Assembly: GCF_028882255.1 (NCBI RefSeq)
Contig: NZ_JARBUY010000002.1
Location: 322,342 to 386,341 of the forward strand
Length of the DNA stretch: 64,000 bases
Source of the DNA: Maribacter polysaccharolyticus
Lineage (GTDB): Bacteria; Bacteroidota; Bacteroidia; Flavobacteriales; Flavobacteriaceae
Direction: 5' to 3'
Part shown: one piece after another, positions 1,872 through 47,604 of the stretch
Numbering within the stretch: the first letter of the stretch is position 1
Layout of the letters: each line of letters opens with the position of its first letter
The notes under the pieces: model-generated
Databases searched by the model: none
The model's input: the letters and a program-made list of their open reading frames with translations, nothing else
Told to the model about the DNA's origin: nothing
Translations under genes and position numbers: made by a program

Positions 1872-3872
1872 ATGAAAAACCTAATAACCACCTCACTTTT
1901 AATTCTATTTTTGACCATTAGTTGTAAAGAAACAAACCATACAGATCCTACAGGTTCCCAAGAAGTAGTGTACGAGGTGGTTTTTCGGGAAAGCCTGGCG
2001 GGAGAATATAAAAAAACGAAAACCGGGGACCATGATTTTGAATGCTATTATACCTATACGGATAGGGGACGGGGACCGGAGTATACCGAAAAGATCACGG
2101 TTAACGATCGCAACTACATCACGGCCCAATCCATCAAAGGTGTCAATTATCGTAAGGTTCCCGTAAACGAAGTTTTTTCGATTTCGGGAACTACTGCTTC
2201 TTGGGAGAATCCCAAAGGAAAGGACCAAGGGGAAATCAAGGGGGATGCGCTGTATTTTCGATATGACGGTTCTCCTGCCATTTATGAAATCCTTGCACAA
2301 CAACTATTGACATCGGAAACCGGAAAAGTGCGTCTTTTCCCTGAAGGGGAGGCCGAGTTGGTTAAAAAAATGGCATTGACCTTGGAGAATGGTACCGAAC
2401 TTGATCTATTGATGATCAAAGGGTTGGATATGGTTCCTACCTATTTATGGATGAAGGGGGATCAATTGGTCTGTAGTATCGCAGGAAACCTGCATGTGGT
2501 ACAAGAAGCCTATAAGTCCATGCGTTCCGAGATGAAAAAAATGCAGGACAGCGTAGAGGATGCTTATTTAATAGAGATTTCCGAAAAGCTGTCCCATGGC
2601 TTCAATAAGGCAGTGATAAGGAATGTGAACGTTTTTGGTGTAGATGGTACCCTACTGATGAACCAAGATGTTTTTGTAGACGGGGAAACCATCCAAGCGA
2701 TCCAAGCAACCGGTAAAAATGCCATTCCTGAAAATGCAGAGGTAATCGATGGTACCGGTAAGACTTTAATGCCGGGTATGTTCGATATGCATACGCATAA
2801 TGGCAAGTTCCGGGGAATATTGCATGTCGCCGGTGGTGTGACCTCGGTCCGGGATATGGCCAACAACAAACAACTGTATCAATTAAGGGATCAATTTGAA
2901 GCTAATGAGATCATTGGCCCGCATATCGTAACCTTTTGTGGGATAATCGATGGTCCTGGCCCCTATGCCAATCAACGTAATGTGGTGGAAACGCTGGAGG
3001 AAGGATTGGCAGAGATCCAGGATTATAAAGATTTAGGGTATCAACAGATCAAATTGTATAGTTCCATCAAACCTGAATGGGTAACCCCATTAACCGAAAA
3101 AGCACATGCACTTGGCATGCGGGTCAGTGGCCATATTCCCGCATTTATGACCGCCTCACAAGCCATCAATCAGGGTTATAATGAAATCCAACATATGAAT
3201 ATGTTGTTTTTGAATTTCCTGTCGGATACCATTGATACGAGAACGCCTTTGCGTTTTACCATGGTAGCGAAGCATGGGTTGGACCTTGATTTTGAATCCG
3301 AAGAATATCTCGAATTCATAGACCTCTTGAAAGCAAAGGATATTTTGATCGACCCCACAATGGGTGTTTTTGAAAATATGATCGTCGCCACTAAAGGGGA
3401 ACCGAGTCCTACCTATAGCGAGATCATGGGCAGGCTTCCCATTATCAGTCAACGTCAGTTTTATGCCGGTGGACTTCCGAAAACGGAGGAAACAACGCCC
3501 ATTTACAGGAAGAGCTATGATAATATGATTGCCGCCGTTTATGACCTATACAAGAAGGACGTGAAAATCGTTCCCGGTACCGATGGCATACCAGGTTTTT
3601 TATACCATCGTGAACTCGAGCTTTATGTAAAATCGGGCATTCCTGCCAATGAGGTGCTGCAATTGGCTACCATAAAATCCGCGGAAATCACTGGAGTGTC
3701 TGAATCTTACGGATCCATTGAAGCCGGTAAAAAGGCCGATCTTATTTTAGTGGACGGTAACCCTGTAGCGAACATAGGGGACATAAGAAGGGTGGAATGG
3801 ACGATGAAGGGGAGCAATCTCTTCTATGCCAAGGAGCTGTACAATGCGATGGGCATAAATCATTTTAAGTAA
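1872..3872 (+). CDS. Exported amidohydrolase-superfamily lipoprotein
   Basis: 666 residues. The start MKNLITTSLLILFLTISC is a lipoprotein signal with Cys18 as the lipidated residue. Residues ~20-240 are an N-terminal extension without a recognised family. From ~245 comes the metal-dependent hydrolase fold: His307 and His309 in DMHTH after LMPGMF, Lys394 in QIKLY (candidate carboxylated lysine), His421 in SGHIPAF and Asp571 in PGTDG. The C-terminal GKKADLILVDGNP strand is typical of imidazolonepropionase and prolidase-like members that open cyclic amides or cleave Xaa-Pro-type bonds. The substrate is not deducible. It is a paralogue of the protein at 5101-7146. Confidence 0.9.
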   Translation: MKNLITTSLLILFLTISCKETNHTDPTGSQEVVYEVVFRESLAGEYKKTKTGDHDFECYYTYTDRGRGPEYTEKITVNDRNYITAQSIKGVNYRKVPVNEVFSISGTTASWENPKGKDQGEIKGDALYFRYDGSPAIYEILAQQLLTSETGKVRLFPEGEAELVKKMALTLENGTELDLLMIKGLDMVPTYLWMKGDQLVCSIAGNLHVVQEAYKSMRSEMKKMQDSVEDAYLIEISEKLSHGFNKAVIRNVNVFGVDGTLLMNQDVFVDGETIQAIQATGKNAIPENAEVIDGTGKTLMPGMFDMHTHNGKFRGILHVAGGVTSVRDMANNKQLYQLRDQFEANEIIGPHIVTFCGIIDGPGPYANQRNVVETLEEGLAEIQDYKDLGYQQIKLYSSIKPEWVTPLTEKAHALGMRVSGHIPAFMTASQAINQGYNEIQHMNMLFLNFLSDTIDTRTPLRFTMVAKHGLDLDFESEEYLEFIDLLKAKDILIDPTMGVFENMIVATKGEPSPTYSEIMGRLPIISQRQFYAGGLPKTEETTPIYRKSYDNMIAAVYDLYKKDVKIVPGTDGIPGFLYHRELELYVKSGIPANEVLQLATIKSAEITGVSESYGSIEAGKKADLILVDGNPVANIGDIRRVEWTMKGSNLFYAKELYNAMGINHFK

Positions 3873-11956: not shown

Positions 11957-14900
11957 CTAAGAGACATCGACTTGTCTTACCGTTCTTCCCTTTAGTAACA
12001 TAAGTCGAATATCCTCTAACATCAAGTACAAACAAGGTACGATCACTAAGATGATCGTCGTGGCAAAAACGATTCCGAACCCCAAGGAAATGGCCATGGG
12101 GATCAAGTAGAAAGCCTGACTTGAAGTTTCCAGTATTATGGGGGCCAGGCCGCCAAAAGTGGTCATTGTCGTTAATATGATGGGCCTAAAACGGCGCAGG
12201 CCGGCCTCATGGATCGATTCGTAAATGGAGTTGCCTTCTTTTCTTTGTTTATTGGCATAATCGATCATGATCAATGAATCGTTGACCACGACCCCGGAGA
12301 GGGCAATTACGCCCATCAAACTGACCAAGGAGAGGTCATATCCCAGTAATATATGACCAATGACGGCTCCTACAATACCAAACGGAATGGCGGTCATAAC
12401 GATCAAGGGCTGTGTATAACTTGAAAAAGCGACGGCCAATAGGGCATAGATCAATAACATGGCGATCGTAAAACCTGCCTTTAGGGTATTGGTACTTTCC
12501 CGCATATCGGCCTGGCTCCCTTCAAAGGTCCATGTGATTCCCGGAAAATCGGCACGCAACTGTGGCAAGGTCTCACTTTGTACCGAAGCGATTACGCGAC
12601 CGACCGAATTGGCGGGCTCTACGTCCATACCTACATTCACGACCCTTCGGCCATCCCTACGGTTGATGCTGGTAAAGGCTTCCCGTTGTTCTATTTCGAC
12701 CACATCCATCAACGGAACTTCGACCCCACTGGGCGTTTGTATCAAGAAATTTTCCAGGTTTTTGATGTCCTTCCGTTCTTCCAGGGGCAATTTTACGCGT
12801 ACTTCGATTTCGTTCATGCCCCGTAATTGGCGTAACGCCAGGGCCCCAAAAAATCCGTCGCGCACCTGTCGGCCCACATCATCCGAGGTAAGCCCTAGAT
12901 TCCTGCCATGGGGTAGCAATTTAAAATCGTACTGCATTTTGCCCTTATTATAATTGTCGGTAACATCACGTGTGTTTGAGAAACCTTTCATGCGTTCCAC
13001 AAAAGCTGCACTGGCCCGTTCAAGTACATTGATATCCGAATGGCTTAGGTCGATACTAATGGCTTGCCTAGCCCCACCGGGGCCCCGTTCGGCTTCGAAG
13101 GTAATTTGGTCCACACCTTCAATATCACCGATATTATCACGCCATAGTGCAATTACTTCCCCTGCCGTAATGTCCCTTTGATCGGGCGGTAACATCACGA
13201 TTTCCACATCGATGAAATTTTGCCCTCTAACATTCGTCTTGATACCTTCGGCCACTTCATACAGATTGTGTTCCTCGAACATTCGCTGAGTGGCATCCGA
13301 AATGGCATGGGCCACCTTAGCGGCTTGATCGGGAGTCGTACCCACGGGCAATCGCACCCCAGCTTCTATTTCATCGGCAGCGACTTCCGGCATCATGATC
13401 ATTCCCATATGGCCACTATACCCGTATCCGCCAACAATTACCAAGAGGCTGATGGCGGCACTAAGGGTGATGTATCGATATTGCAAACATATGTCGAGAA
13501 ATGGACGGTATTTATTTTCGATAAACCGGTCGAAAGCCCTTGCGAAAGCGCGTTGATAGCCTTCCAATTTTAGGATCACTTGATTCTTGGTGCTTTCTTT
13601 TTTGAGATGTCCCAAATGGGAAGGAAGGATAAAGAGGGCCTCGAACAGGGATACGGCCAAAATGACAATGACCACGGCAGGCAGCGGTTGCCAGAATTTT
13701 CCGGTTTCCCCCGGCATAAATAGAAGGGGGACAAAGGCGATAATGGTGGTGACAATGCTGAAAACAACGGGTTTGGAAACATCTTTCGTTCCTGCGATGG
13801 CGGCCTCCATGGGACTAAGGCCTTTTTGGCGATATTCATATACATTTTCACCCACGACGATCGCATCATCGACCACGATGCCCAAGACGACTAAAAAGCC
13901 GAACATGGAAATCATATTGACACTGATCCCAATTAGGGGCAATAAGATCATTCCCCCGATAAAGGAAACCGTCATTCCCATCATGACCCAAAAGGCAAGG
14001 CGGTACTCCAAGTACAGTGTCAGTATCAGGAGTACGATGATAATGGCGAGCAATCCGTTTTCGGTAAGTAAGGATAGACGTTCGCGATAGTCTTCCGCAC
14101 GGTTGCTATCGGTTCGGAATTTTACCCCGGGGGGCAGTTGAAAGTCCTTTAGGATGGTTTCTACGGCATCGGCAATTTCCAGAGGCGATTGATCGCCAAT
14201 GCGGAAAATACGCAGTTCTACATAATTCTGCTGGTTGAATTGTCCGTGAAAACCGGTTTCTTCAAAGCCATCGGTTATCGTGGCAATATCCTTTAAGGCC
14301 ACACTGGCCCCTGAATCGGAAGAGACAATGGTAATATTTCCATACTCCTCGGCCCATTGTTTGCGCTCTTGCATACGTAGGAGGATCTCCCCACTTTGGG
14401 TCTGTACCGCCCCGGCAGGAACATCATTACTGCTCTGCCTGATAATATCGGCCACTTGCCCGAGTGTCAGGCCATACTTTTGTAAATTAATACGGGGTAT
14501 TTCAATTCGGGTCTCATAATCGGGTACATTGCCCAATTCCACTTGGGTGATCTTCGGGTTGTTCAAGAGGATGGTACGCAGGCGTTCGGCAAGCTGTCGC
14601 AGTGTCCAAATATCGGTACTTCCGTAAAGTCCAATTTGGAGCACATCCCTTTGTCGGGACTGCAGGCTCACTTCCGGTCGTTCGATATCATCGGGAAACG
14701 TACGGATTCTATTGATGGCCTGATCGATATCCTGAAAAGCCTTCATCCGCTCCGAGCCGGCAACCAATTCAATACTGATCTGACCGGACCCTTCATTGGC
14801 CTCCGAAACGATTTCCTTGATACCTTGCACCCCGCGCACGGCTTCTTCGACCGGCTGTAATACCCCTTGTTCCACTTCGGCAGGGGAGGCACCCGGATAG

Positions 14901-15097
14901 GCCACGGAAACTTCAACGAAATCGAGTTGAAACTCAGGAAACACCTCTTTTTGAATAGTGAACATGGTATATAGACCACCCCCCAAAAGCACGAGCATCA
15001 AAAGGTTCGTGGCGATTGAATTTCGTGCCATATACCCTATCACGCCTTCTTTTCTAGGTGTTTTCCCCTCGTTTTTATTGCCTTCGGCCATAACCAT
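11957..15097 (-). CDS. RND efflux pump inner-membrane subunit (AcrB family)
   Basis: 1046 residues, full length for the family. TM1 lies at about 27-45, two large periplasmic loops follow TM1 and TM7, and the pump has twelve predicted TM helices. TM4 contains the proton-relay pair Asp410-Asp411 in [14 protein letters not shown]. The sequence is of the hydrophobe/amphiphile type rather than a metal CusA type, since the CusA metal-methionine layout is not seen. It should exchange H+ for an amphiphilic substrate and work with the adaptor upstream. The start overlaps the adaptor stop by one base (TAATG), indicating coupling. It is the last gene of a three-gene efflux operon. Confidence 0.95.
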
Positions 15098-16305
15098 TAT
15101 TCTATTTGTTCCTTTTCACTGGTTGAGGTACGGGTACGCAATCCGATACCATTGGTCACGGTGCTTAAATCCGTGATAACGACTTTCTCCCCATGGGTTA
15201 GCCCCTTACGTATATAAGCATATTCGTCATCATTCAGAACTATATCGACCTCACGGATTTCCAGTTTTCCATCCTTCATGATCCAAACGGTTTCATTGCT
15301 TCTTACATAATCCCGTTTAAGGCGCACTACATCCGATATGGAATCGGCCTTTATTTTGACTTCCACAAAAGTGCCTATCATCAATTTTGGCCAACCTTTC
15401 ATATTTTCATTTTTCGCTAAGGGGTCAGCAACCTTTACCAATACTTGCGCTAGTCTGGTTTGGGCATCGAGGGCACCTATTTGTTTATCGAGGAATCCTT
15501 CGCGGTATTCCCCGGGGGTCCATGCGGTTTGATTTTCTATACGTACCGGAGAGCCTTTTTCGGCATCATCATCAGGAAAACCCAACCATTGTAATTTTGA
15601 TACGGGCACCGTGGCAACGACCCAATAGAAGTCGGTTCCGACAATACGGCCTAAGTCATCACCTGGGGACACTTGAGATCCTTGGGTCACGTTTTGGTTC
15701 AATATATGGGCATCAAAGGGGGCCCTGATAGTCGTGCGCTCAAGATTGAGCCTTGCCTGTTCTACCGAGGCCTTGGCGGCATTGATATTAGCCTTAACCG
15801 CATTCAACTGGGGTTTCCTAAGGACCAATTGGCGCTCTTCCTCAGATAGGGGGTTATCCCCAAAGAGGGAATCATCGGCAATCAGTGCCAAGTCTTGTTG
15901 TGCTATCTGTTGCCGCCCCATTTCTGTATCGAGTGTTGTTTGGGATTGTAGCAACGCGCTTTTTCGCAATTCGAGGGTATTGCGGTAGTCGGCCGGATCG
16001 ATTTGTAATAACATTTCGTTTTTCTTTACAAATCCACCAGGGACGAATGCGGCTGACCTACGGATTACTTGTCCTGCTACCAACGGACTTAAGGTAACAT
16101 CCTCTACCGGACGTACCGTTCCGGTTGCTACGATAACCGGCTCAAAGGTACCTTGGGTTGCCGGAAGGACATCGACCAACATGGCGGTCTCTACCGATGC
16201 GCCTTCCCTTTCGGCCTCGGGTTCGGTGGAAAAAATGAGGGTCGTCAAAACAATGCCGACCAACAGAATGCCCAAACAAATAAACAGTATTTTTTTGTTG
16301 CTCAT
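15097..16305 (-). CDS. RND periplasmic adaptor (AcrA/MFP family)
   Basis: About 402 residues from the ATG at 16305 ([12 protein letters not shown]). An upstream in-frame ATG at 16380 would overlap the preceding gene by about 60 bp and precede the obvious membrane anchor, so I reject it. Residues 5-28 form the N-terminal membrane anchor. The lipoyl/barrel halves, the alpha-hairpin ([14 protein letters not shown] through [11 protein letters not shown]) and the beta-barrel block [13 protein letters not shown] follow in usual order. It bridges the inner-membrane pump and the outer-membrane factor. Confidence 0.93.
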
Positions 16306-16321
16306 ATACGTGGTATTTCGT

Positions 16322-17719
16322 TCAATTTTCCAAAGTTCGGCCTGTATCGAATCCTCCGGCCAATGCCCGGTATAAGCCAATGCGAATGGCTATTCGTTGC
16401 GCCTGGGCGGCCACTTGGTCCCTGCGCAATTGTTGCTCTTGATCCAAACCTAGGAGTACATCGAGATACGGACTGAAACCGTTCAAAAATTCGATGCGCA
16501 ATTGCTTGTTGCTTTTTGTGGCAAGCTCTAGTTGCCGTTCAATATTTTCCAGTCTTCGCTGTTGCATGCGATCTTGGACCAGACCGTCTTCCACCTCTTG
16601 AAAGGCTGTTAGCGTTACTTGTCCGTATTCGTAAAGACGTTGGTTTTTTAGGGCCTCGGTCCTATCGACCTCCGCATTCAGTTGTCTGCCATAGAACAAA
16701 GGGGTCAATAAACTACCGGTCAATGAATAGGCCCAATTATCGAAAAGATTGTCAAAATTATTGGATCTCAATTGTCCTCTGGTCGAAAGGGAGAGGCTTG
16801 GGTATTTGGTACGCACTGCAGATGCCATATCCCGATCGGCAGCGAGAAGCAGGGCATAGGATTGTTGGATATCCGGTCTTCGTCGAATGAGTTCCAAGGG
16901 AAGTCCGGCTTGTGGCGGTTCGGGAAGGGCAGGTAGGTCTTTTTTTTCCAATGCAATGGTTTCCTGGGGTTGTCTACCTAACAGTACGGCCAATTGATGC
17001 TCCAAAAGGCGAACGTTGCTGCCAATGAGAAGGTGTTGCTCTTTGGTACTCTCCAACAGTTGTGCCTGTCGAAGGATGTCGACTGCCCTTATTTGCCCCC
17101 CCACAAAACGCGACCGTATTAATTTGATGATATCCTCATTTGTGGTGATCTGATTCTCCGTGATTCTCAATTGCTTTTTAGCGGCCAGTAGTCGGTAATA
17201 GGTGGTCGCGATTTCGGCGGAAATGGATATGGCCGCAGCACGGTAATCGTAAAGACTGGCCTCTGCCCTGAATTTTTCGGCCTGTACGGCGGTTTTTACC
17301 CGGCCCCAAAGATCAACCTCGTAGTTTGCCGATAAACCAAGCTGGGTATTTTCTCCTCCGGCAAAATCGGGTTCGGGAAAATTCCGGGCCGTTTGTGCAG
17401 ACGCTTCCATTTGGGGCCATTTGTCCGAAGTTTCCCTGGTTACCGTCGCCTTGGCCGCCAAAAAACTTTGCCAGGTCGCTGCCAGATCAAAGTTGGATGC
17501 CAAAGCGCTATCGATCAATCGGTTCAGGTTTTCATCTTCAAAAGCGGTCCACCATCGATCCTCTAAAACCACTTCTCCGGCATAAGAGAACTCCTGTATA
17601 TCCTCAATGGGCAGTGCCATGTTTGAAAATTTCGGAGAACATCCGAGTAGTAGGATACAGATAAATAGCGGTGAGGGTCTTGAAAACTTGAACGAATATT
17701 TCTCAGGTCTAAAAAGCAT
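16322..17719 (-). CDS. RND outer-membrane factor lipoprotein (TolC/OprM, NodT type)
   Basis: 465 residues. The N-terminus has a lipoprotein signal ending LLLGC. Two repeated outer-membrane-efflux-protein domains follow, with long amphipathic helices (SALASNFDLAATWQSFL and the equivalent second repeat starting near ELIRRRPDIQQSYALL). The LIRRRPDI motif is typical of NodT/OprM-type factors. It is the first gene of the efflux operon, with 16 bp before the adaptor start. No TetR or MarR regulator is encoded next to it; the AT-rich region upstream should hold the promoter. Confidence 0.94.
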   Translation of the reverse strand: MLFRPEKYSFKFSRPSPLFICILLLGCSPKFSNMALPIEDIQEFSYAGEVVLEDRWWTAFEDENLNRLIDSALASNFDLAATWQSFLAAKATVTRETSDKWPQMEASAQTARNFPEPDFAGGENTQLGLSANYEVDLWGRVKTAVQAEKFRAEASLYDYRAAAISISAEIATTYYRLLAAKKQLRITENQITTNEDIIKLIRSRFVGGQIRAVDILRQAQLLESTKEQHLLIGSNVRLLEHQLAVLLGRQPQETIALEKKDLPALPEPPQAGLPLELIRRRPDIQQSYALLLAADRDMASAVRTKYPSLSLSTRGQLRSNNFDNLFDNWAYSLTGSLLTPLFYGRQLNAEVDRTEALKNQRLYEYGQVTLTAFQEVEDGLVQDRMQQRRLENIERQLELATKSNKQLRIEFLNGFSPYLDVLLGLDQEQQLRRDQVAAQAQRIAIRIGLYRALAGGFDTGRTLEN

Positions 17720-18194: not shown

Positions 18195-18208
18195 GTGGAG
18201 CCGGAGGG
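18195..18208. repeat. attachment-site copy 1 (chromosome/element B junction)
   Basis: GTGGAGCCGGAGGG, identical to the forward-strand sequence of the tmRNA 3' end at 47208-47221; the match extends one base (A). It marks the distal end of element B, where flanking sequence switches from chromosome to element. Confidence 0.75.
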
Positions 18209-18308
18209 AATCACCAAATAAAAAACCTCAATATCTTCAAATTACCGTAAATACTCTCATAGCCCTTTAAATACAATACTTTTTGATTAATTGAAATACT
18301 CAAAGGTA

Positions 18309-18341
18309 TTGAATAGTTTTGAATAAAATTGTATATCTTTG
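18309..18341 (+). promoter_or_regulatory. Predicted integrase promoter
   Basis: A Bacteroidetes-type promoter: TTG at 18309-18311, a 22-bp spacer, then the -7 box TATCTTTG (TAnnTTTG) at 18334-18341. It ends 30 bp before ATG 18371 and supports that start, since a start at 18329 would lie inside the promoter. Confidence 0.6.
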
Positions 18342-18370
18342 TATTCTACCGTACAAAAATAATACAAAAA

Positions 18371-19630
18371 ATGGCCTCAATCAATTTTCTTTACCGTTCC
18401 ACAAAGCCGGAATCTTATCTTAATTTGAGATTACTTTTTAGGATCCATTCGGATGGAATAAAGGATCATGTAATCGGAGCTAAAACAAAATTGAAAGTTT
18501 CAAAAGAATATTGGGTCAAGCAACACAATAAGAAATCAAAGGATATTGACATTATTAATAGACAAAAGGAGGTCAAGTCTGAATTAATGAAGATTGAGAG
18601 CTTTATCCTTGAGGAGTTTGAAAAAGAAAATCCTAGTCTAGTCAATAAGAAATGGCTTCAATCCAAACTTGAATTGTATTATAATCCTAAGGGTCAAAAG
18701 AGGTTCCCTAAGGATTTGGTAAGTTATATTGACTTTTATATTGAAGATCGTAAAAACGATATTTCAAAAGCCTCTGAAAAAAAGTTTAAAGTTGTTCAAA
18801 ACAAAATGGAACGGTTTCAAATTGAAAGAGGCTCTACCTTATTAATAGCGGAAATAGGAGGCGATTTTAAAAATGAATTTCAAGATTACTATTTAAAGGA
18901 AAAGTACTCTCAAAATACTATGAATAGGGAATTGAAATTTATAAAAACCTTCTGCCGTCATGCTCGTTACCATGGTTTGGAGGTTCATTTCCAACTTGAA
19001 GATATGAACCTCAAAAAAGAAACTATCAAAAGTCCTTACCTATCCTTTGAAGAGATTACTCAAATTGAAAAAGCAGAACTTGAAACTGAATATCAAGAAA
19101 ATGCTAGGGATTGGTTGATTATATCCTGTTTCACAGGTCAAAGGGTTTCAGACTTCTTAAGATTTGAATCCAATATGATAAGGGTTGAAGATGGTAAACA
19201 GCTTTTAGAGTTCAAACAACAAAAGACAGGGAAACTGATGACTATCCCGGTCCATTCAAAAGTAAAGGCCATACTTGAAAAGAGAGGCGGCGAGTTCCCT
19301 AGAAAAATATCCGATCAACGATACAATGAATATATCAAAGAGGTTTGTAAACTGGCCGGTATAAACGAAATGGTAACCGGAAGAAAGAAAGTTAATATCA
19401 ATCCAAATAAAAAGGAACGAGCCAAATACAGGGTCATTGAAGCTGAATATCCTAAATGGGATTTGGTTTCAAGTCATATCGGACGGCGCTCCTTCTGTAC
19501 TAATCACTACGGTAAAATACCTACTAGTCATTTGATGTATATTTCCGGCCATAGCACCGAAGCCTTATTTCTAGAATATATAGGTAAATCAAGCAAGGAT
19601 CTTGCTCTTGAATTGGCTAATTACTTTTAA
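18371..19630 (+). CDS. Tyrosine recombinase/integrase of element B
   Basis: 419 residues from ATG 18371 (MASINFLYRS). It has a Bacteroidetes-type N-terminal arm-binding domain (about 1-100), a SAM-like core-binding domain (about 105-215) and a catalytic domain. The catalytic residues are all visible: Arg258 (TGQRVSD), His369 and Arg372 (SSHIGRR), His394 (ISGHS) and nucleophile Tyr403 (FLEYIG). It should catalyse integration and excision at the tmRNA 3' end, because it lies immediately inside the 18195 att copy. Its stop codon touches the first 65-bp repeat. Unlike the element A integrase, it keeps the first catalytic Arg. Confidence 0.93.
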   Translation: MASINFLYRSTKPESYLNLRLLFRIHSDGIKDHVIGAKTKLKVSKEYWVKQHNKKSKDIDIINRQKEVKSELMKIESFILEEFEKENPSLVNKKWLQSKLELYYNPKGQKRFPKDLVSYIDFYIEDRKNDISKASEKKFKVVQNKMERFQIERGSTLLIAEIGGDFKNEFQDYYLKEKYSQNTMNRELKFIKTFCRHARYHGLEVHFQLEDMNLKKETIKSPYLSFEEITQIEKAELETEYQENARDWLIISCFTGQRVSDFLRFESNMIRVEDGKQLLEFKQQKTGKLMTIPVHSKVKAILEKRGGEFPRKISDQRYNEYIKEVCKLAGINEMVTGRKKVNINPNKKERAKYRVIEAEYPKWDLVSSHIGRRSFCTNHYGKIPTSHLMYISGHSTEALFLEYIGKSSKDLALELANYF

Positions 19631-19747
19631 GCAAAAAAATAAAGTTATGTTTTGGGCATCATTTTCTACATTTCCTACATGGTCCAATCAATTGAGCAAA
19701 AAAATAAAGTTATGTTTTGGGCATCATTTTCTACATTTCCTACATGG
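19630..19747 (+). repeat. Left array: two copies of a 65-bp repeat
   Basis: Copy 1 (19630-19682) and copy 2 (19695-19747) are identical over 53 bp, with a 65-bp period and a 12-bp linker between them. Each ends in two iterated 9-10-mers, TTTTCTACAT and TTCCTACAT. The same unit recurs in reverse orientation, three times, at 25467-25650. Possible roles are replication iterons, binding sites for an element protein or arm sites. Confidence 0.9.
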
Positions 19748-19780
19748 CTCTAAAATTAAATCACAGTAAATCAATACATT

Positions 19781-20044
19781 ATGAAAAACAACAAATATAC
19801 CCAACTACTAGAAAAGCTTCAACTTGAAAACCTTGACCATTCAATGAAATTTTTAAGCAGATACCAAAAAGAGGTACAAGAAATTGAATTGCTGCAAGGA
19901 AGACAAAGGGCCGTCAGGGTTCAGGAACTCAAAGCAATGTTCTTTGATGAGATCCTTGAAACCTCGGCCATTTACCGAGCGGTCCCAAAAGAATACAAAG
20001 GCTTATTCAAATCTGAATTTATTTCAATACTTACTATGGAATAA
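19781..20044 (+). CDS. Small hypothetical protein of element B
   Basis: 87 residues, rich in Glu, Lys and Gln and predicted largely helical (SRYQKEVQEIELLQGRQ). There is no signal peptide, membrane helix or recognised motif. It lies between the left 65-bp repeat array and a strong terminator, so it forms its own transcription unit, separate from the replication operon. It could be a DNA-binding or regulatory accessory protein, but nothing in the sequence settles that. Confidence 0.6.
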   Translation: MKNNKYTQLLEKLQLENLDHSMKFLSRYQKEVQEIELLQGRQRAVRVQELKAMFFDEILETSAIYRAVPKEYKGLFKSEFISILTME

Positions 20045-20068
20045 CCCTTGACCCTACGTTAAAAACAC

Positions 20069-20098
20069 AAGCCCCGGCCAAATGGTCGGGGCTTTTTA
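20069..20098 (+). terminator. Rho-independent terminator after the small ORF
   Basis: Stem AAGCCCCGGCC / GGTCGGGGCTT with loop AAAT and one mismatch, followed by a T-run, 24 bp after the stop at 20044. It isolates the small gene from the downstream operon. Confidence 0.85.
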
Positions 20099-20151
20099 TT
20101 CTTGGTTGAAAACGTTAGAAAACTCATAGCACCCTAACAAGCACTTACCCC

Positions 20152-20159
20152 TAAGTTTG
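20152..20159 (+). promoter_or_regulatory. -7 box of the element B replication operon
   Basis: TAAGTTTG matches TAnnTTTG and lies 54 bp upstream of ATG 20214. No good -33 element is visible at normal spacing, so activation may be needed. A GTTGC/GCAAC inverted repeat follows shortly downstream. Confidence 0.4.
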
Positions 20160-20213
20160 CTCCTGTAAATAGTTGCAGGCACCGCAACGGTTAACCATTT
20201 AAGAAATTAGACA

Positions 20214-20966
20214 ATGAAAAAACTTAAAGAGCTTGACAAGAATATTTTGATTGTCCACTACGACCGGGAAAGCTTCGGGGAGCTAACCGATGTTGTGTAT
20301 TGTATTTACACTTACGACGGCCAAAAAGACGAATACAGATCTTTTGAGTCGGACAACCTCAATTATACCGAATCGGATGCAATTCTGTCTTTCAAATGGG
20401 CGGTCGAGAGGGCCAAAAGGGACGGCAAGACTATTGTCCAGTGGAACCAAAACCGCCCGGAGTATGGTCCACAGCACTTGAACAATAGGTATTTACACCT
20501 GACAGGAAACCGATTAGATCTTGATTACGGTAAGGATCAAATCAATTTAGCCGGGTTGCTTTTCGATGTTTACGGGGACAAATACATCTCACACCCTAGA
20601 CTGGATAACCTCGTGGCCCTAAATGAATTTGATATCCAAATTGAAGGGCCTAAACAACTATACGCGAGACTGGCGCAAATCGTAAAAATATATTGGGCCG
20701 CCAAGGACGATACTCTAAAAACAAATATCGGTTTGGTGGATGCCCTCGAGCAAAAACAGGAAGTTATCGATCGTTTGAAGGCAGAATTGAAACTTTTAAA
20801 AACCAATGAGAAGATCCTGACCCGCGCCGAGGTTTTAGAAATGCTTGATATAAGCGATCGGACTCTTAGCTACTGGACAGCCAATTTTGAAATACCATTT
20901 ATAAGGATCGGGCGTCGCTTGTACTTTTTGAAATCTCAAATCCTTGAAAAACTTAACGAGCAATGA
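20214..20966 (+). CDS. Element protein with C-terminal excisionase-type HTH
   Basis: 250 residues. The N-terminal ~150 residues contain a pattern I associate from memory with a family of phage/plasmid proteins of unknown function: VQWNQNRPEYGPQHL, then a short Asp-rich strand, LLFDVYGDKYI and SHPRLDNL. Next comes a helical, coiled-coil-prone linker (ALEQKQEVIDRLKAELKLL). The C-terminus (about 200-250) is a MerR/excisionase winged helix: TRAEVLEMLDISDRTLSYW. It overlaps the next gene by 4 bp (ATGA). It is probably a regulator or replication accessory protein of the element. The enzymatic role of the N-terminus, if any, is unknown. Confidence 0.65.
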   Translation: MKKLKELDKNILIVHYDRESFGELTDVVYCIYTYDGQKDEYRSFESDNLNYTESDAILSFKWAVERAKRDGKTIVQWNQNRPEYGPQHLNNRYLHLTGNRLDLDYGKDQINLAGLLFDVYGDKYISHPRLDNLVALNEFDIQIEGPKQLYARLAQIVKIYWAAKDDTLKTNIGLVDALEQKQEVIDRLKAELKLLKTNEKILTRAEVLEMLDISDRTLSYWTANFEIPFIRIGRRLYFLKSQILEKLNEQ

Positions 20967-21238
20967 AAAAAACCATATTCACCCAAATAGATTTTGAGGA
21001 GCTAACCAAGGGCATTGCCGACGCCTTGGCGGATCGTTTCGGGTCAAATCCAAAGCCGGAAAGCGAAGAACCTGAGGAGGAACTTCTTACCCGGGAGGAG
21101 GCCGCTAAATTCTTGAAAATAGATCAATCCACCCTTTGGCACTGGACCAATAAAGGCCGGGTTACGGCCTATGCGATCGGATCAAGGAGGTATTACAAAA
21201 AAACGGAATTACTAACTAGTTTAAAACCGCTAAAATGA
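20963..21238 (+). CDS. Excisionase-family HTH protein
   Basis: 91 residues. An acidic N-terminus (PESEEPEEE) precedes a helix-turn-helix of the excisionase/MerR-like type: TREEAAKFLKIDQSTLWHW, then the wing GSRRYYKKTEL. It is related in design to the C-terminal domain of the preceding protein, so two such HTHs are adjacent. It is translationally coupled on both sides (4-bp overlaps). It is likely the recombination directionality factor or an operon regulator of element B. Confidence 0.85.
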   Translation: MKKTIFTQIDFEELTKGIADALADRFGSNPKPESEEPEEELLTREEAAKFLKIDQSTLWHWTNKGRVTAYAIGSRRYYKKTELLTSLKPLK

Positions 21239-22800
21239 ACCAAAACTTACTGACAGAGACAGAACAAATTAAAGCCCCGGCCAAGAAGGTCATGACCGGG
21301 GAGGATATCCTAGAGGAGCTGGGCAATAGTATTGAGGCGCTAGACTTCCTTCTGCTGGCTTTTCCCGAGAGCAGATTGACCATTGAAAAAATGGAGGAGT
21401 TAAGGCCCCGGGTAACTAACCCCGACGGGACACTTAACGAGGACAACGCCGAAGATCTAAAGGAATACCAAAAACTACAAAAGCAATTGGCGGGGTACAA
21501 GTTAACCCGCAACCATTACCTAGTTTTAGTTGTGGACCAACTCCTAAAGATTGCCGAGGCCAATGACTGGGGTTTATGTAAAAAGAACGGCTTTATTTAT
21601 GTATATAACGGTTCCTTTTGGAATGAAATAAGCAAAGAAGCCTTCCAATATTTCCTTGGGAATGTAGCCTTAAAAATGGGGGTCGAGAAATTCAAAGCGA
21701 AGATCTTCGGATTTAAGGACGATCTACATAAACAATTCATGTCGGAGGCTTATCTTCCGACCCCGCCCGAGGACAATAACAAGGTATTGATCAACTTGCA
21801 AAACGGCACCTTCGAGATTGGCCCGGATGGAAAGCAATTGAGGGAATTTAAGAGAGAGGACTTTGTTACTTATCAACTCCCATTTGACTACGACCCACAG
21901 GCCAAGGCGCGATTGTTCCAAAAGTATCTAGACGAGGTTATCCCGGACAAAGGCAAGCAGAATATTTTAGCCGAATACGCCGGGTATATATTCACGAAAA
22001 CCGAGGTTTTAAAACTCGAGAAAATGTTGATCCTTTACGGGTCCGGCGCCAATGGTAAGAGCGTATTCTTTGAAATTATCAACGCCTTATTAGGTTCTGA
22101 AAACGTCTCAAATTACAGCCTCCAAAGCTTGACCGATGAAAAGGGTTACCACAGAGCGAAGATTGCGAATAAGCTTGTTAACTACGCTAGCGAGATTAAC
22201 GGCAAATTGGAGGTCGATATTTTTAAGCAAATGGCCAGCGGGGAACCCATTGACGCCCGCCTTCCTTATGGTGAGCCTTTCATTATAAAGGATTATGCTA
22301 AATTGATCTTCAATAGCAATGATCTACCTAAGGATGTGGAACATTCGAACGCTTTTTTTAGGCGCTTCTTGATTATAGCCTTTGACGAAACCATCCCGGA
22401 GCATAAACAGGACCGGGACCTAGCAAATAAGATCATAGCTCGTGAACTTTCCGGCGTATTCAATTGGGTATTGGCTGGCCTAGACCGAATCCTAAAGAAT
22501 AGATCGTTCTCAAAATGTAAGGCGGTCGATAATGCCCGGGCATTATATGAAAAGGCCTCCGATAGTGTAAAGATGTTCATTGACGATTATAAATACAGGC
22601 CAGCGATCGACGATTATATCCCAATTAGCCAGCTTTACCCGGAGTACCGGAATTATTGCTTAGGCGACGGGTTCAGAGCTGTGAACAAATCCAACTTCAT
22701 TAAGAGGTTGAACCATCATAAGATTTTCACGAAACGAATGACCGTGGGAAACGTGGCTATGGTTAGCCGTAAAAAAACCGAGGACGATGAGCAATTTTAA
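21235..22800 (+). CDS. Phage/plasmid SF3 helicase-primase (D5/P4 family)
   Basis: 521 residues. The N-terminal ~140 residues are poorly conserved. A D5-N-like segment (QNGTFEIGPDG, LPFDYDP) precedes an SF3 helicase domain with Walker A GSGANGKS (Gly269-Ser276), Walker B region NYASEI and motif C IFNSNDLP. The C-terminal winged-helix portion (about 420-500) matches primase C-terminal domains. It should unwind the element origin during replication. This is the strongest evidence that element B replicates autonomously after excision. It overlaps the next gene by 14 bp. Confidence 0.9.
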   Translation: MNQNLLTETEQIKAPAKKVMTGEDILEELGNSIEALDFLLLAFPESRLTIEKMEELRPRVTNPDGTLNEDNAEDLKEYQKLQKQLAGYKLTRNHYLVLVVDQLLKIAEANDWGLCKKNGFIYVYNGSFWNEISKEAFQYFLGNVALKMGVEKFKAKIFGFKDDLHKQFMSEAYLPTPPEDNNKVLINLQNGTFEIGPDGKQLREFKREDFVTYQLPFDYDPQAKARLFQKYLDEVIPDKGKQNILAEYAGYIFTKTEVLKLEKMLILYGSGANGKSVFFEIINALLGSENVSNYSLQSLTDEKGYHRAKIANKLVNYASEINGKLEVDIFKQMASGEPIDARLPYGEPFIIKDYAKLIFNSNDLPKDVEHSNAFFRRFLIIAFDETIPEHKQDRDLANKIIARELSGVFNWVLAGLDRILKNRSFSKCKAVDNARALYEKASDSVKMFIDDYKYRPAIDDYIPISQLYPEYRNYCLGDGFRAVNKSNFIKRLNHHKIFTKRMTVGNVAMVSRKKTEDDEQF

Positions 22801-23881
22801 GTATAAATTGGACCCCGGCCCAGCAAAGCACTTTTGCCCGAATTGTGGTAAGCGGCGCTTGGTTCGGTATATTGATAGAACCACCGGGGAATATGTAGAG
22901 GACGCTGGCCTTGGCCGTTGCGATCGTGAGAGTGCTTGCGGTTATCATAAAGCGCCAAGCCTAGGCAAAAAATGCTATTTGGTCGAATGTATGGCCATAC
23001 GTTCGATTAGTGAAAAGGCCTATAAGATAACTGATAAACTTGGGGTCTTTGCCTTGGTTCCAAAATCCCAAGTATTGGAGCGCCTTGGCTCCGGCCATTG
23101 CTATATTACTGAATGGTTCTTAGAACAAACCCGCCTTTTTTATAATAAGAGCGATGTCAAATATTTTAGCCAAAAAGGCAAAGCAGTCGAAATGTTTAAG
23201 CCTTTAAAGCCTGCCATTGAAAAGAAGCCCAGCTTCCATAGTTTGGAATTGGTCCAAGACTATTTCCTAGATCAACGAAATAAGGACAACCTTACTATTT
23301 TTCTTGAATCCAAGTTCCCAAAGGGCAGGGTCGAAACGGTTTGCCGGGAGTATCTTCTTTCGGTTACAAATTCATATTGGCCAGCCTCAACCGTATTTTG
23401 GCAAATTGACGAGGCCGAGAGGGTACACGCTGGCAAGATTATGAACTATGATCCAATAACGGGCAAGCGGATCAAAGAGCCATTCCCCCGGATAAATTGG
23501 ATCCATAACGCTATAAAGGCCAAAGATTTCAAATTGAACCAATGTTTATTTGGCCAGCATTTACTTGCTACGGATTACGACTCGACAATCGGAATTGTAG
23601 AGAGCGAAAAAACAGCCCTCATCATGGCAATTTTGGAGCCTTCAATCCTATGGCTGGCAACAGGAAGTAAGCAGAATTTAAAGCCTTCAATGTTGAAACC
23701 CCTTAAAAATAGGGACGTGGTTCTATTTCCCGATAAAAGCGAGTTTCAAACGTGGAAAGAAAAGGCCCAAGGCATGGGCGAGGTCGGTATGACTTCAATT
23801 GCCGTTTCAACTAAATTGGAAAACAATAACGATCTGCCCGAAGGCGCTGATCTTGCAGATCTATACCTAAAGACTTTATAA
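22787..23881 (+). CDS. Zinc-finger/toprim-like DNA primase-related protein (DUF6371 type)
   Basis: 364 residues. An N-terminal zinc finger is formed by Cys17, Cys20, Cys45 and Cys51 (FCPNC, RCDRESAC). The C-terminal third resembles a toprim fold: IVESEKTALIMA supplies the acidic residue, and DVVLFPDKSEF the second acidic strand. This layout matches DUF6371-type proteins found with mobile-element helicases, probably the priming partner of the upstream SF3 protein (inference). Translation is coupled to the helicase gene through the overlap. Confidence 0.75.
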   Translation: MSNFKYKLDPGPAKHFCPNCGKRRLVRYIDRTTGEYVEDAGLGRCDRESACGYHKAPSLGKKCYLVECMAIRSISEKAYKITDKLGVFALVPKSQVLERLGSGHCYITEWFLEQTRLFYNKSDVKYFSQKGKAVEMFKPLKPAIEKKPSFHSLELVQDYFLDQRNKDNLTIFLESKFPKGRVETVCREYLLSVTNSYWPASTVFWQIDEAERVHAGKIMNYDPITGKRIKEPFPRINWIHNAIKAKDFKLNQCLFGQHLLATDYDSTIGIVESEKTALIMAILEPSILWLATGSKQNLKPSMLKPLKNRDVVLFPDKSEFQTWKEKAQGMGEVGMTSIAVSTKLENNNDLPEGADLADLYLKTL

Positions 23882-23882
23882 T

Positions 23883-24488
23883 ATGGGACAGAAATCGAGA
23901 CTACCTATAATTATCGACGAAGCGCCCCAGCTTAGGGCGGCTTTCCTGAACAAGTGCGGCTTTTTTAAAGAGGGCCATATTACCGGGGGATCCTTCGAGC
24001 TGGCCTTGAATGATGGAAATATCCTAAAGGTTCGGATCGTGGCCATATTTACAAACGGCGAATCAAAAGTCATACTTCAATATGATTGGGCCGGGCAGTC
24101 CGTTAGGGAGCAAATAGAATTGACCTCCCGCCGGTGCAATTTGGCGACCGGAGGCAATATTTATGGTTTTGTCTGCCCATATTCCGGGAAACGGGCGAGA
24201 AAGCTAATTTTTGTGCATGGTCGGTTCATGCATTTGGAATTGGTGCCGGGTGGCTTGTATAGATCACAAACGAGGTCACACAAATGGCGGGATATGGACC
24301 GCCGATATAAGTCTTATTTGGAAATGGATGAGATCCTTGCGGAACTGAAAAAACCACACTTCAAAAAATCCCATTTAGGTAAGCCAACGAAAAGATACCT
24401 CCGATTGCTTGAACGATTGCAAGAAGCTCGGGCGGTGGACCCCAACGAGGTTTTGCAAGCTGTCAAAGCATGGGGCAAAAGAAAATAA
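23883..24488 (+). CDS. Element protein with degenerate zinc-ribbon motif
   Basis: 201 residues starting one base after the preceding stop. The middle resembles a zinc-ribbon protein common in phages and plasmids (pattern W-CP-CG-R, then LY, then CxxC and YRSQ). Here only Cys98 of CPYSGKR remains; the rest of the motif survives as KLIFVHGRF and GLYRSQTRSHKW. The N-terminus is a beta-rich domain (SFELALNDGN, VILQYDWAG). The zinc site has probably been lost. Function unknown; the basic C-terminus would suit nucleic-acid binding. Confidence 0.6.
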   Translation: MGQKSRLPIIIDEAPQLRAAFLNKCGFFKEGHITGGSFELALNDGNILKVRIVAIFTNGESKVILQYDWAGQSVREQIELTSRRCNLATGGNIYGFVCPYSGKRARKLIFVHGRFMHLELVPGGLYRSQTRSHKWRDMDRRYKSYLEMDEILAELKKPHFKKSHLGKPTKRYLRLLERLQEARAVDPNEVLQAVKAWGKRK

Positions 24489-24517
24489 AGTAATTATTAA
24501 TTCTAAACTAAATAAAC

Positions 24518-25261
24518 ATGAGTACAGTAAGCAGTATTGACAAAGCGAACAAAGAGCGCGAAAAAGCAAGGCACGCAAAAGCAAAGGAGGTTGTAAAGGC
24601 CTTAACCGCCAGCCTGCCGGAACCCGACTTTAATCCTAATTGGGATCAAGGGCCATTAAAAAATGCCATTGCCGAGGCGGCTTTTGATTCGGCCCTGGAA
24701 AATAGTGTAGTTTTTGAAATGGTCGACGAGCATAATCTTAAAGCCCATTACCAGGGCGGCGGTATCAAAATTCAACTGGCCGATCTTGAAGATGTGGCAA
24801 AAACCCTTTTTGATTGGTCCGGGGTTGCACACCGCATAGAGAACCCCGGTGCCGCTACCCTTTATCACATGATTTCATTGAAGGCCATGTTCTATAAAAT
24901 GGAAAAAGGTAAACAAAAGAACTCCGCTACCTACTTAAAGGAGATGACCGCGAAGGTTATCGAAGGCGGTTTGACCATGGAGGAAGGTGCCAGCCGGGAC
25001 GAACATAAAGAGCAATTTGTTCTATACTTGGTAAATGTCGCCGAGGAGCTGGGTATTCAATTTTTCCGGGATAAGAAACGCAACCTTCTTTTGAATTGTA
25101 GTGATGTGAAATTCGGGTTGAAACCTTTGGGGGAAAAAGAAGCCTTGCCCTATTTTAAGGATATGGTCGAAAACGGCCCCATGGGCGGGCGGTTGATCGG
25201 GTCCAAAGCGCCCGGACAGATTTTGGGAATGTTCACGGCCAAAATGCCATTGGTCAAATAA
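24518..25261 (+). CDS. Hypothetical protein of element B
   Basis: 247 residues, no signal peptide or membrane helix. The N-terminus is a basic helix (DKANKEREKARHAKAK) followed by an alpha/beta region. I do not recognise a family. It is the last gene of the element B operon, 29 bp after its neighbour, and is followed by a terminator. Given its position it may be a replication or regulation accessory factor, but this rests on context only. Confidence 0.6.
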   Translation: MSTVSSIDKANKEREKARHAKAKEVVKALTASLPEPDFNPNWDQGPLKNAIAEAAFDSALENSVVFEMVDEHNLKAHYQGGGIKIQLADLEDVAKTLFDWSGVAHRIENPGAATLYHMISLKAMFYKMEKGKQKNSATYLKEMTAKVIEGGLTMEEGASRDEHKEQFVLYLVNVAEELGIQFFRDKKRNLLLNCSDVKFGLKPLGEKEALPYFKDMVENGPMGGRLIGSKAPGQILGMFTAKMPLVK

Positions 25262-25284
25262 TACTCTCTGTCATGTTTGGTTTG

Positions 25285-25320
25285 CCCCTTGCGCCGTTCT
25301 TAATGGTGTGAGGGGTTTTT
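25285..25320 (+). terminator. Terminator of the element B operon
   Basis: An 11-bp stem with G-U pairs (CCCCTTGCGCC / GGTGTGAGGGG), a 9-nt loop and a T5 tail, 23 bp after the final gene. Confidence 0.75.
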
Positions 25321-25711
25321 GGTATTTATATAGTCTACTGATTTAGTAGGGTAATCAATCCCTTAAGGCTATTCGGCCCGAAAAGGTGCTTCGGGACCTA
25401 TTCGCCCGGGCGGGACCCCGCGCCGGGGCCGTGGATGGACCGGGGGAGGGGGTCTAAATCTCAAATCATGTAGGAAATGCACGAAATGATGCCCGAAACA
25501 TAACTTTATTTTTTTGCTCAATTGATCGGACCATGTAGGAAATGCACGAAATGATGCCCAAAACATAACTTTATTTTTTTTGCTAAGTTGATCGGACCAT
25601 GTAGGAAATGTAGAAAATGATGCTCAAAACATAACTTTTATTTTTTTGCTCAATCGCAGAAATAGCCTTTAAATTCTATTACAGTACATTAATCGTACAA
25701 AACTAAAAACA
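25321..25711. other. Non-coding right end of element B: GC-rich hairpin block and repeats
   Basis: No gene. The stretch 25370-25455 is strikingly GC-rich compared with the AT-rich element and contains a CCCCG/CGGGG hairpin (25416-25428). The three right-hand 65-bp repeats follow directly. Together they look like a control region such as an origin (inference). Confidence 0.5.
25467..25650 (-). repeat. Right array: three inverted copies of the 65-bp repeat
   Basis: Copies at 25467-25518, 25531-25584 and 25597-25650, period 65-66 bp. They are the reverse complement of the units at 19630-19747, with a few substitutions (for example CGTGCAT in place of TCTACAT in two copies). The 12-bp linker is also largely conserved. 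With the left pair they bracket the replication operon in inverted orientation. Confidence 0.9.
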
Positions 25712-25754
25712 AAAAAATCCTAAATAGCTATTAATAAGTCATTTAGGATTTTTT
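25712..25754 (-). terminator. Rho-independent terminator at the element A/B junction
   Basis: Perfect 14-bp stem (AAAAAATCCTAAAT / ATTTAGGATTTTTT) with a 15-nt loop, 3 bp from the 25758 att copy. It is placed to terminate tmRNA transcription when element B alone is inserted; element B probably supplied it. Confidence 0.75.
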
Positions 25755-25757
25755 GTG

Positions 25758-25771
25758 GTGGAGCCGGAGGG
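25758..25771. repeat. attachment-site copy 2 (element B/element A junction)
   Basis: GTGGAGCCGGAGGG, identical to the tmRNA 3'-end core. The following bases (TCTAGAACC) keep GAACC in the same register as the tmRNA T-arm, so this copy retains more degenerate tmRNA sequence than copy 1. Confidence 0.75.
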
Positions 25772-43926: not shown

Positions 43927-44228
43927 AAAGGACCTATATCAAGTTCCGGTGCTCCATCTACGAGAAAAAACTGCTCAGGAAAAGAGCGGAACGGGCGGGA
44001 CTTTCCCTCTCCGAATATTGCCGTAGCTCCGCTTTCGGAAATGCCGTTATCGAAAGATTGACCGAGGAACAATCGGACCATTATAAAATGCTAGTGAAGT
44101 ATAAGGGGAACTTTAACCGGATCGGGAATATGTTCAGGAAACACAATCCTAAACTGGCTAGCGAGGTGGAGCAACTGGCGGAGGAAATACGCAAGCACCT
44201 TTATAATTTCAGAAGAACAAAGCAATGA
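43923..44228 (+). CDS. mobC: MobC-type relaxosome protein
   Basis: 101 residues. The N-terminus is a ribbon-helix-helix-like segment (KRTYIKFRCSIYEKKLLRKR, SLSEYCRSSAFG), and the C-terminal helix NRIGNMFRKHNPKLASEVEQ matches bacterial MobC. It binds oriT and assists the relaxase. It overlaps the primase gene and the MobA gene by 4 bp each. Confidence 0.87.
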   Translation: MKRTYIKFRCSIYEKKLLRKRAERAGLSLSEYCRSSAFGNAVIERLTEEQSDHYKMLVKYKGNFNRIGNMFRKHNPKLASEVEQLAEEIRKHLYNFRRTKQ

Positions 44229-47207: not shown

Positions 47208-47221
47208 GTGGAGCCGGAGGG
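47208..47221. repeat. attachment-site copy 3 (tmRNA 3' end/element A junction)
   Basis: GTGGAGCCGGAGGG, corresponding to the acceptor stem and start of the T-arm of tmRNA. It is the intact target half; copies at 18195 and 25758 mark older or distal junctions. Confidence 0.8.
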
Positions 47222-47604
47222 AGTCGAACCCTCGTCCAAACAAGCAATTACAAAGCTTTCTACATGTTTAGTTTCCAATTGGTTTTCGATATGTACCTGA
47301 CCGGAAACAGCCTAATACATACTTAGCTTCTTAAGATTTTTGTGCCACTAGCGAAGCCTTAGTGGCCTTATATCGACATTTATGGTGCTCCTTATTGAAT
47401 CGCCGTCGACAGAGGCTATTCAGGAACATCTCGCTTTCCCGCCTTGCGGGAACGAGGCTAAATCCTACTGTAATTCAGATTAAGCGGCAAGAGCGTAATT
47501 ATTTTCGCCAATTAAAAGTGTGGAAAATGAGATTAACGAGCTGTATCCCAGCGCTCGACATGCTTACATTGCCATTGGTCTCGCTGTCAAAACCGGTCGG
47601 CCCC
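47209..47604 (-). ncRNA. ssrA: Transfer-messenger RNA
   Basis: 396 nt on the minus strand. The 5' end GGGGCCGACCGGTTTTGACA and the 3' end CGGCTCC pair to form the acceptor stem, with discriminator A at 47209; CCA is not encoded. The T-arm GGGTTCGACTCCC is adjacent. The tag ORF at 47480-47509 reads GENNYALAA then TAA, the usual Bacteroidetes tag. It rescues stalled ribosomes. Its 3' end is the integration target for elements A and B; element insertion leaves the mature RNA intact. Confidence 0.97.
47480..47509 (-). other. tmRNA tag-peptide reading frame
   Basis: Resume codon GGC followed by codons for GENNYALAA and stop TAA. The ending ALAA is the expected proteolysis signal. Confidence 0.95.

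Follow-up and report, generated by a model that had tools for sequence, protein, structure and literature searches.

What are the two facing arrays of a 65-bp repeat that bracket a helicase operon in the genome of Maribacter polysaccharolyticus? They lie in a window of 64,000 nucleotides (RefSeq assembly GCF_028882255.1, contig NZ_JARBUY010000002.1, positions 322,342 to 386,341), here numbered from its first letter, and belong to an integrative element that we call element B. The original prediction, made from the letters of the window, noted the arrays and offered several readings: a bipartite origin, a partition-like site, a synapsis site bringing the element ends together and an invertible boundary. 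Comparison with relatives across the phylum argues for the first. The arrays are very probably the iteron origin region of a P4-like integrative element, and we lean slightly towards both halves being required for its function.

The limits of element B are set by a 14-base attachment (att) core, GTGGAGCCGGAGGG, whose three exact copies in the genome all lie in the window, at 18195, at 25758 and at 47208, the 3′ end of ssrA. These copies delimit an element of 7.56 kb (18,195-25,758), which together with a second, adjoining element forms a tandem at the 3′ end of ssrA. The integrase, previously placed outside the left array, indeed lies outside it but inside the element, beside the left att. The facing arrays are real, with coordinates now refined (Table 1). 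The two left units are identical over 50 nt and spaced 65 bp apart, and the arrays form an inverted match of 114 nt, 93% complementary, with 5,720 nt between the arms. Each unit consists of an A/T tract (approximately AAAAAAATAAAGTTTTGTTTT) followed by three iterons at a 9-bp step, TCATTTTCTACATTTCCTACAT in the window; these are the iterated inner 9-10-mers of the original prediction. BLAST of the left array against its own genome (4.76 Mb, 21 contigs) returns three matches, only itself and the right array, and a scatter of the repeat elsewhere in the genome was thus not found. A family profile of 50 columns, with the window's units among its training sequences, gives five matches at 11 bits or more in the window (44.9-49.5 bits), exactly the five units, against a shuffle maximum of 11.0 bits in 1.6 Mb of other loci. 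Since three close relatives carry one or two units on each side, the tandem copies appear to be a recent amplification. The stretch from the operon end to the right array (25385-25455) is very G+C-rich within A+T-rich surroundings, and in the related locus L024 a G-rich stretch flanks the right unit on that side too.

The arrays are not a CRISPR (clustered regularly interspaced short palindromic repeats) array, as had been argued from their conserved linkers. The linkers are near-repeats rather than unique spacers, their conservation being only partial, and no cas family matches any of the element's 8 genes. As to a partition-like site, the ParA and ParB families match none of these genes.

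The strongest evidence for an origin is the company that the unit keeps. We looked for the helicase in samples drawn from larger groups: 397 genomes of the family (matches in 15 genomes, at 16 places including the window), 296 genomes of the order, which added one place, and 395 of the phylum, which added 24. This yields 41 helicase loci including the window. An inverted pair of units was assigned in 29 of them, the outcome of the search for the unit in other elements with the same operon that the original prediction proposed. The pair is split around the helicase operon in 16 loci and sits compactly 3′ of the helicase gene in 13; 12 are unassigned. In the close relatives L024-L026 (66-68% identity to element B in the helicase, 52-60% in the integrase), one unit stands straight after the integrase gene (int) and one or two inverted units beside the opposite att. 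The unit follows the P4-family helicase and not the integrase, for helicase loci with quite different integrases hold pairs. Related integrases occur at 40 places in 37 of the 397 genomes; among the 30 examined, four have the helicase (the window, L040, L047 and L052) and 26 lack it. No unit pair was found beside any of these 26 with either the leave-one-out profile or the first profile (nine were also read over ~15 kb; 35 entries, 244 kb).

Several searches of different design support this linkage. With the leave-one-out profile at 11 bits or more, both orientations were matched in 14 of the 17 family and order loci. The fixed profile, applied at 10 bits or more to the 24 held-out phylum loci (shuffle maximum 11.0 bits in 1.6 Mb), found convergent pairs in eight (L105, L106, L112, L114, L117, L120, L125 and L126, the minus unit of L112 scoring 10.8 bits) and a pair in reverse order in one (L127). 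A profile-free search, which looked only for 9-bp iteron triplets in inverted pairs preceded by A/T-rich DNA, attained its mark of 15 in 19 of 42 entries (the 41 helicase loci plus the phage contig L080), in none of 9 integrase-only loci and in a single one of 1,020 shuffles. A search confined to the helicase 3′ end scored at least 28, and above all 40 shuffles, in L029, L034, L035, L105-L110, L117, L122 and L028. Searching with a 5-nt core and few mismatches recovered only part of the pairs, and scanning the helicase loci for tandem repeats gave too much noise to be of use.

The unit also persists on DNA of a different kind. tblastn with the helicase matched 17 plasmid records at 25.8-30.3% identity and 63 phage records, the best-ranked among the matches listed being L080 (47.6%). 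Six viral contigs (L130-L135) were also found with an alignment of the helicase as query, and one of them, L134, is especially informative. L134 carries a 125-bp exact terminal repeat and is therefore probably a circle of 4,609 bp; it encodes the helicase and DUF6371, and holds an inverted pair of units (37.3 and 30.8 bits) with the same iterons on both sides. A search for an integrase on L134 found none. Of the others, L132 and L135 have the compact layout, L133 shows no unit, and in L130 and L131 the part of the contig examined shows just the plus unit, after int. A 64-aa open reading frame (ORF) of L134 is weakly excisionase-like (phrog_66, 0.0017). Two further observations concern the gene content of these contigs. 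L134 has an ORF at 2824-3288 resembling the small terminase TerS (phrog_309, 6.2e-10), and L131 (1-11029) reads int, unit, helicase and DUF6371 module, then ORFs resembling portal, head, and small and large terminase, all of these by reading only. To judge from L131, the module may also ride in phages or capsid-carrying elements. L134 might be a tiny satellite that tags its own DNA so that a helper packages it.

The placement of the units is regular, and it bears on the other readings. In the split layout the left unit follows a tyrosine integrase gene in 16 of 16 loci (eight of these integrases, missed by our own profile, were confirmed by Pfam). Measured from the last sense codon of int, its start lies at -8 to +94 bp in 15 and, in L112, 615 bp on, past a 167-aa ORF. 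The right unit lies 93-114 bp from a tRNA or tmRNA att in nine of the 13 split loci with att mapped and 1.6-2.8 kb inside in the remaining four (L027, L030, L031 and L032); att mapping covers split loci rather than compact ones, and the ends of L120, L125 and L126, where the tRNA was not found, are unmapped. L070 has a second minus unit in the gap between helicase and DUF6371 genes. In 11 of the 15 split loci other than the window there is one unit a side at the thresholds used. The compact loci with both units matched by profile (n=8) hold an inverted pair 91-151 bp apart, start to start. A 41-row helicase tree needs at least three changes between the two layouts, and the split group L030-L032 is nested in a clade with compact loci (support 98/98 and 92/95 at the forks above).

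Throughout the split loci the order and direction of int, plus unit, helicase and minus unit are the same (16/16). An invertible segment bounded by the arrays, plausible at first sight since inverted repeats of 114 nt at 93% could recombine, is hard to reconcile with this single relative orientation and with one unit a side in most relatives, and we consider it extremely improbable. The closeness of the units to int and att would suit integrase arm sites, or synapsis sites joining the element ends. However, no unit pair accompanies the 26 related integrases without helicase, no unit follows int in the five compact loci where our profile found an integrase (L029, L034, L035, L117 and L122), and L134 keeps its units with no integrase found. 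In addition, a separate pair of 10-11-bp repeats, common to both ends, lies between unit and att and changes with the integrase (8 elements; weakest in L115), so the candidate Int sites are separate from the units. In element B the left-end repeat of this type, CCGTACAAAAATAATACAAAA, is distinct from the 65-bp unit, and GTACGRT-type pairs similar to it stand upstream of at least seven related integrases without helicase. A role as arm or synapsis sites is accordingly disfavoured and very improbable.

A third possibility is that the units are operators for AlpA-like helix-turn-helix (HTH) regulators that control int and the replication operon. Direct repeats are often bound by regulators, HTH_17 proteins are encoded near the left array, and in nine of 15 relatives one or both of the HTH proteins had a recognisable relative. 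Yet the right half is found downstream of the operon or between the helicase and DUF6371 genes, and not on the operon's promoter side, and L029, L030, L032 and L036 carry units with HTH relatives undetected, although diverged HTH proteins could be missed. We judge operators to be improbable.

More serious is a variant of the origin itself, in which a single array would suffice as origin, while the other, a copy-number (incompatibility) locus, would pair with it by handcuffing. Iteron arrays either side of a rep gene are a known layout, as in P1 (oriR/incA) and F, which are iteron replicons with control iterons. Handcuffing of iterons is described for Vibrio cholerae ori2 (PMC6090056). Also in favour of this variant, the arrays of the window are unequal, with two units against three. 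Such replicons share with element B initiator-binding direct repeats at several places near the rep gene, but they have another initiator class and other iterons, and no known link to att or int. The inverted pairs only 91-151 bp apart in eight compact loci, and the one unit a side in 11 of 15 other split loci, suit two halves better. We therefore regard a separate control locus as unlikely, if deserving of real weight, and a bipartite origin, which the unit's tie to the helicase supports well, as the better reading.

An origin in two halves is also consistent with how the iterons vary. Iteron cores differ between elements (TACAT, TTCAC, CCACT, CCATT, GACAT, TACAC and GCACA), and within an element the left and right sides tend to agree. 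Across the 16 split elements, the left and right iteron blocks share, in the best register, 21.1 of 24 positions when both come from one element and 15.2 when they come from different ones; this value was reached in 0 of 20,000 permutations, and the result is the same after thinning of close relatives (13 elements). The left units of L115 and L116 came from a search that required left-right similarity; among the 13 elements with both halves found by profile, which omits these two and L112, agreement is 20.9 within against 16.1 between, again reached in 0 of 20,000 permutations. Both between-element values are for the best register, the uncorrected figure of 12.6 being lowered by register shifts. 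The A/T tracts co-vary more weakly (17.8 within, 14.2 between). The halves stay alike, and this signal alone does not fix the cause; local duplication or gene conversion between halves could add to it.

Known replicons offer two architectural parallels. The annotation of P4 runs, in circular order, ori with iterons, an excisionase/AlpA-type gene, the operon, alpha, crr with iterons, Int arm repeats, attP and int. Element B keeps the same circular order, its left half corresponding by position to P4 ori and its right half to crr. Its helicase passes the P4-family model TIGR01613 (169.7 bits, cut-off 108.7), and its iterons occupy two places flanking the helicase operon, the second near the attP core (112 bp from it, compared with 194 bp for the start of crr in P4). 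The crr iterons are 9 bp apart, and the only places in P4 with TTCAC-N4-TTCAC are the two crr repeats, where an A/T tract precedes it. The differences are equally clear. Primase and helicase are fused in P4, whereas element B has a separate Zn-ribbon/DUF6371 protein after the helicase, which would be its primase-like partner; late genes and cos lie between int and ori in P4, and nothing does in element B; the iteron letters differ; and P4 crr and ori are ~4.5 kb apart by annotation, with attP outside that stretch.

The second parallel is with phage-inducible chromosomal islands (PICIs), including those of Staphylococcus aureus (SaPIs). PICI origins are described as having two iteron sets just 3′ of the initiator gene rep, with A/T-rich DNA (PMC6092414), and the 13 compact loci resemble them in having two iteron sets directly 3′ of the helicase. 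PICI iterons flank the A/T region, whereas here the iterons face inward with the A/T tracts outside. The pair in element B is also split, and family searches matched no terS among its 8 genes.

A number of observations weigh against the origin reading or limit it. Twelve of the 41 helicase loci are unassigned. L111 and L124 have one unit on a cut contig, L033 has plus units only, and no pair was accepted in L028, L037, L113, L118, L119, L121, L123 or L128. L028 (30), L113 (26) and L124 (24) beat 40 shuffles in the 3′-end search, and L037 scored 32, reached by 1 of 40; all four were kept unassigned, L028 having no profile match. The phage contig L080 and the viral contig L133 have no unit, and L127, the twelfth unassigned locus, shows a low-scoring pair in reverse order, minus then plus (6508 and 6904 in helicase-forward coordinates), both upstream of the helicase. 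Background is not negligible either. Leave-one-out shuffles reached 19.2, 13.0, 12.6 and 11.6 bits in 953 kb, so that halves such as those of L035 (11.8), L036 (12.0) and L038 (12.1 bits) are individually insecure, and two integrase-only loci gave isolated weak matches (L071, 16.6 and 10.2 bits; L079, 10.8 bits). Stray matches also occur in compact loci: L036 (13.3 bits), L108 (15.1 bits) and L034, where a match of 22.0 bits at 16271 (helicase-forward), above the shuffle maximum of 19.2, is far from the compact pair. The profile-free search left L024 at 14 (shuffle maximum 11), and L028, L033, L035-L038 and others were also under 15. In the 3′-end search L036 and L038 scored 25, reached by 3 of 40 shuffles each, so their compact assignment depends on profile matches. 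The pairs of L107-L110 and L122 were spotted by eye and scored by a search written afterwards.

Other points in the same direction concern the halves, P4 and the binding protein. In five of 16 split elements (L024, L025, L030, L070 and L114) the right half of another element matches better than the element's own. On P4 the family profile scores -2.3 bits at best (second crr repeat; shuffle maximum 9.1) and a TTCAC-type profile 7.0 (shuffle maximum 15.9); neither exceeds shuffles, and common descent of the DNA sites with those of P4 is therefore not supported. HTH proteins could bind the units in place of the helicase. The assignment as an origin is drawn from sequence comparison.

If the arrays are an origin, the parts of the unit suggest how it may work. 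The A/T tract of each unit would be the likely melting site, and the three 9-bp iterons the likely binding site of the superfamily 3 (SF3) helicase, itself likely the initiator, perhaps aided by the DUF6371 or an HTH protein; the C-terminal Pox_D5-like domain of the helicase is the candidate iteron-binding part. The two inverted halves would then most likely bring two helicase assemblies onto the excised circle, whether through looping of the DNA or with each half acting independently. The sequence is compatible with looping, independent loading and mutual inhibition alike, and we infer both the direction of replication and the need for both halves.

A further proposal concerns the split layout. 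In the excised circle of the nine loci with units at both ends, the path from unit through att and int to unit is 1,522-1,635 bp in eight and 2,504 bp in L112, whereas the units are 5.0-10.6 kb apart through the operon. The origin might be split between the ends of the integrated element so that excision assembles it. Since the short path exists only in the circle, replication would be coupled to excision and barred from firing in the chromosome. We put this forward tentatively and think it rather doubtful. If true, it would set these elements apart from P4, where attP lies outside the crr-ori stretch and excision, as the map implies, leaves the distance between the sites unchanged.

The remaining features of element B are listed in Table 1. 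Among its 8 genes no relaxase or phage structural gene was recognised. A search of solved structures gave only a weak match to picornavirus 2C, and plasmid megablast with the 6.1-kb region gave none. A scan with the helicase alone yielded one distant match among genome contigs (L007) and none among viral contigs. The tyrosine integrase scores 22.7 bits against Phage_integrase, below the cut-off of 27.1.

Table 1. Features of element B and its integration target, in window coordinates
Feature	Position	Strand	Basis or remark
Left att core (GTGGAGCCGGAGGG), duplicating the 3′ end of ssrA	18195..18208		Exact genome copies
Integrase-type repeat, left end (CCGTACAAAAATAATACAAAA), candidate Int arm or promoter site	18340..18370		GTACAA-type words common to both ends
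Tyrosine integrase	18371..19630	+	Phage_int_SAM_5 33.4 bits; phrog_1 8.1e-22
Putative left origin half (ori1-like), two units	19633..19747	+	Begins 3 bp past the int stop
Left array, unit 1	19633-19682	+	Sequence, profile match
Left array, unit 2	19698-19747	+	Sequence, profile match
87-aa ORF	19781..20044	+	No family match
250-aa protein, C-terminal HTH_17	20214..20966	+	2.1e-7
91-aa HTH_17 protein, AlpA/excisionase-like	20963..21238	+	TIGR01764 5e-6, 26.8 bits, below cut-off 28.8
SF3 helicase, P4 family (D5_N, DUF5906, Pox_D5 C-terminus)	21235..22800	+	TIGR01613 169.7 bits, cut-off 108.7
Zn-ribbon and DUF6371 protein	22787..23881	+	DUF6371 4.3e-56, Zn_ribbon_16 1.4e-19
201-aa ORF	23883..24488	+	Relatives in L024, L027, L029, L031
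247-aa ORF	24518..25261	+	Relative in L024 only, among 15 loci compared
Putative right origin half (crr-like), three inverted units	25466..25646	-	End 112 bp from the right att core
Right array, three near-copy units	25466-25515, 25531-25580, 25597-25646	-	Spacing 65/66 bp
Integrase-type repeat, right end (TACATTAATCGTACAAAA)	25680..25705		Words common to both ends
Terminator-like hairpin, then T run	25712..25755		Read from sequence, unscored
Right att core, where element B meets the second element	25758..25771		Exact core copy
Intact ssrA (tmRNA), integration target	47208..47604	-	3′ end holds the third att core copy

The hairpin with its T run sits between the integrase-type repeat and the att core, and similar ones occupy the same place in L024-L026. 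Between element B and ssrA, the second element (25758-47208) has its own integrase (45721-46971), an MbpB/MobB-like relaxase (44225-45094), and VapE-like and Toprim/CHC2 proteins. Its cargo includes a carboxylesterase and a molybdopterin-binding protein, and there are aldo/keto reductase-like genes recognised by reading of ORFs only. Just beyond the left att (11957-17719) are resistance-nodulation-division (RND)-type efflux genes, comprising an AcrB-family pump by Pfam and two neighbouring genes that are efflux-type by reading of ORFs only.

Two-part iteron origins of P4-family helicases are already known as a kind. In the open-access literature searched, on P4 crr, on PICIs and satellites in the phylum and on DUF6371, we recognised nothing as the present origin. 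Within that scope, what is new is the definition of such an origin by sequence in this phylum, the occurrence of both layouts in a single helicase family, the likeness of the two halves and their regular places beside int and att. The units provide a candidate sequence-defined origin for integrative elements and phage-like contigs across the phylum whose replication genes carry DUF names. PICI-like compact and P4-like split layouts occur within one helicase family, which opens their relation to study. Left and right iterons change jointly between elements, and initiator-iteron recognition therefore becomes testable by comparison. Finally, the position of one half by att and the other by int raises the testable question of whether excision licenses replication.

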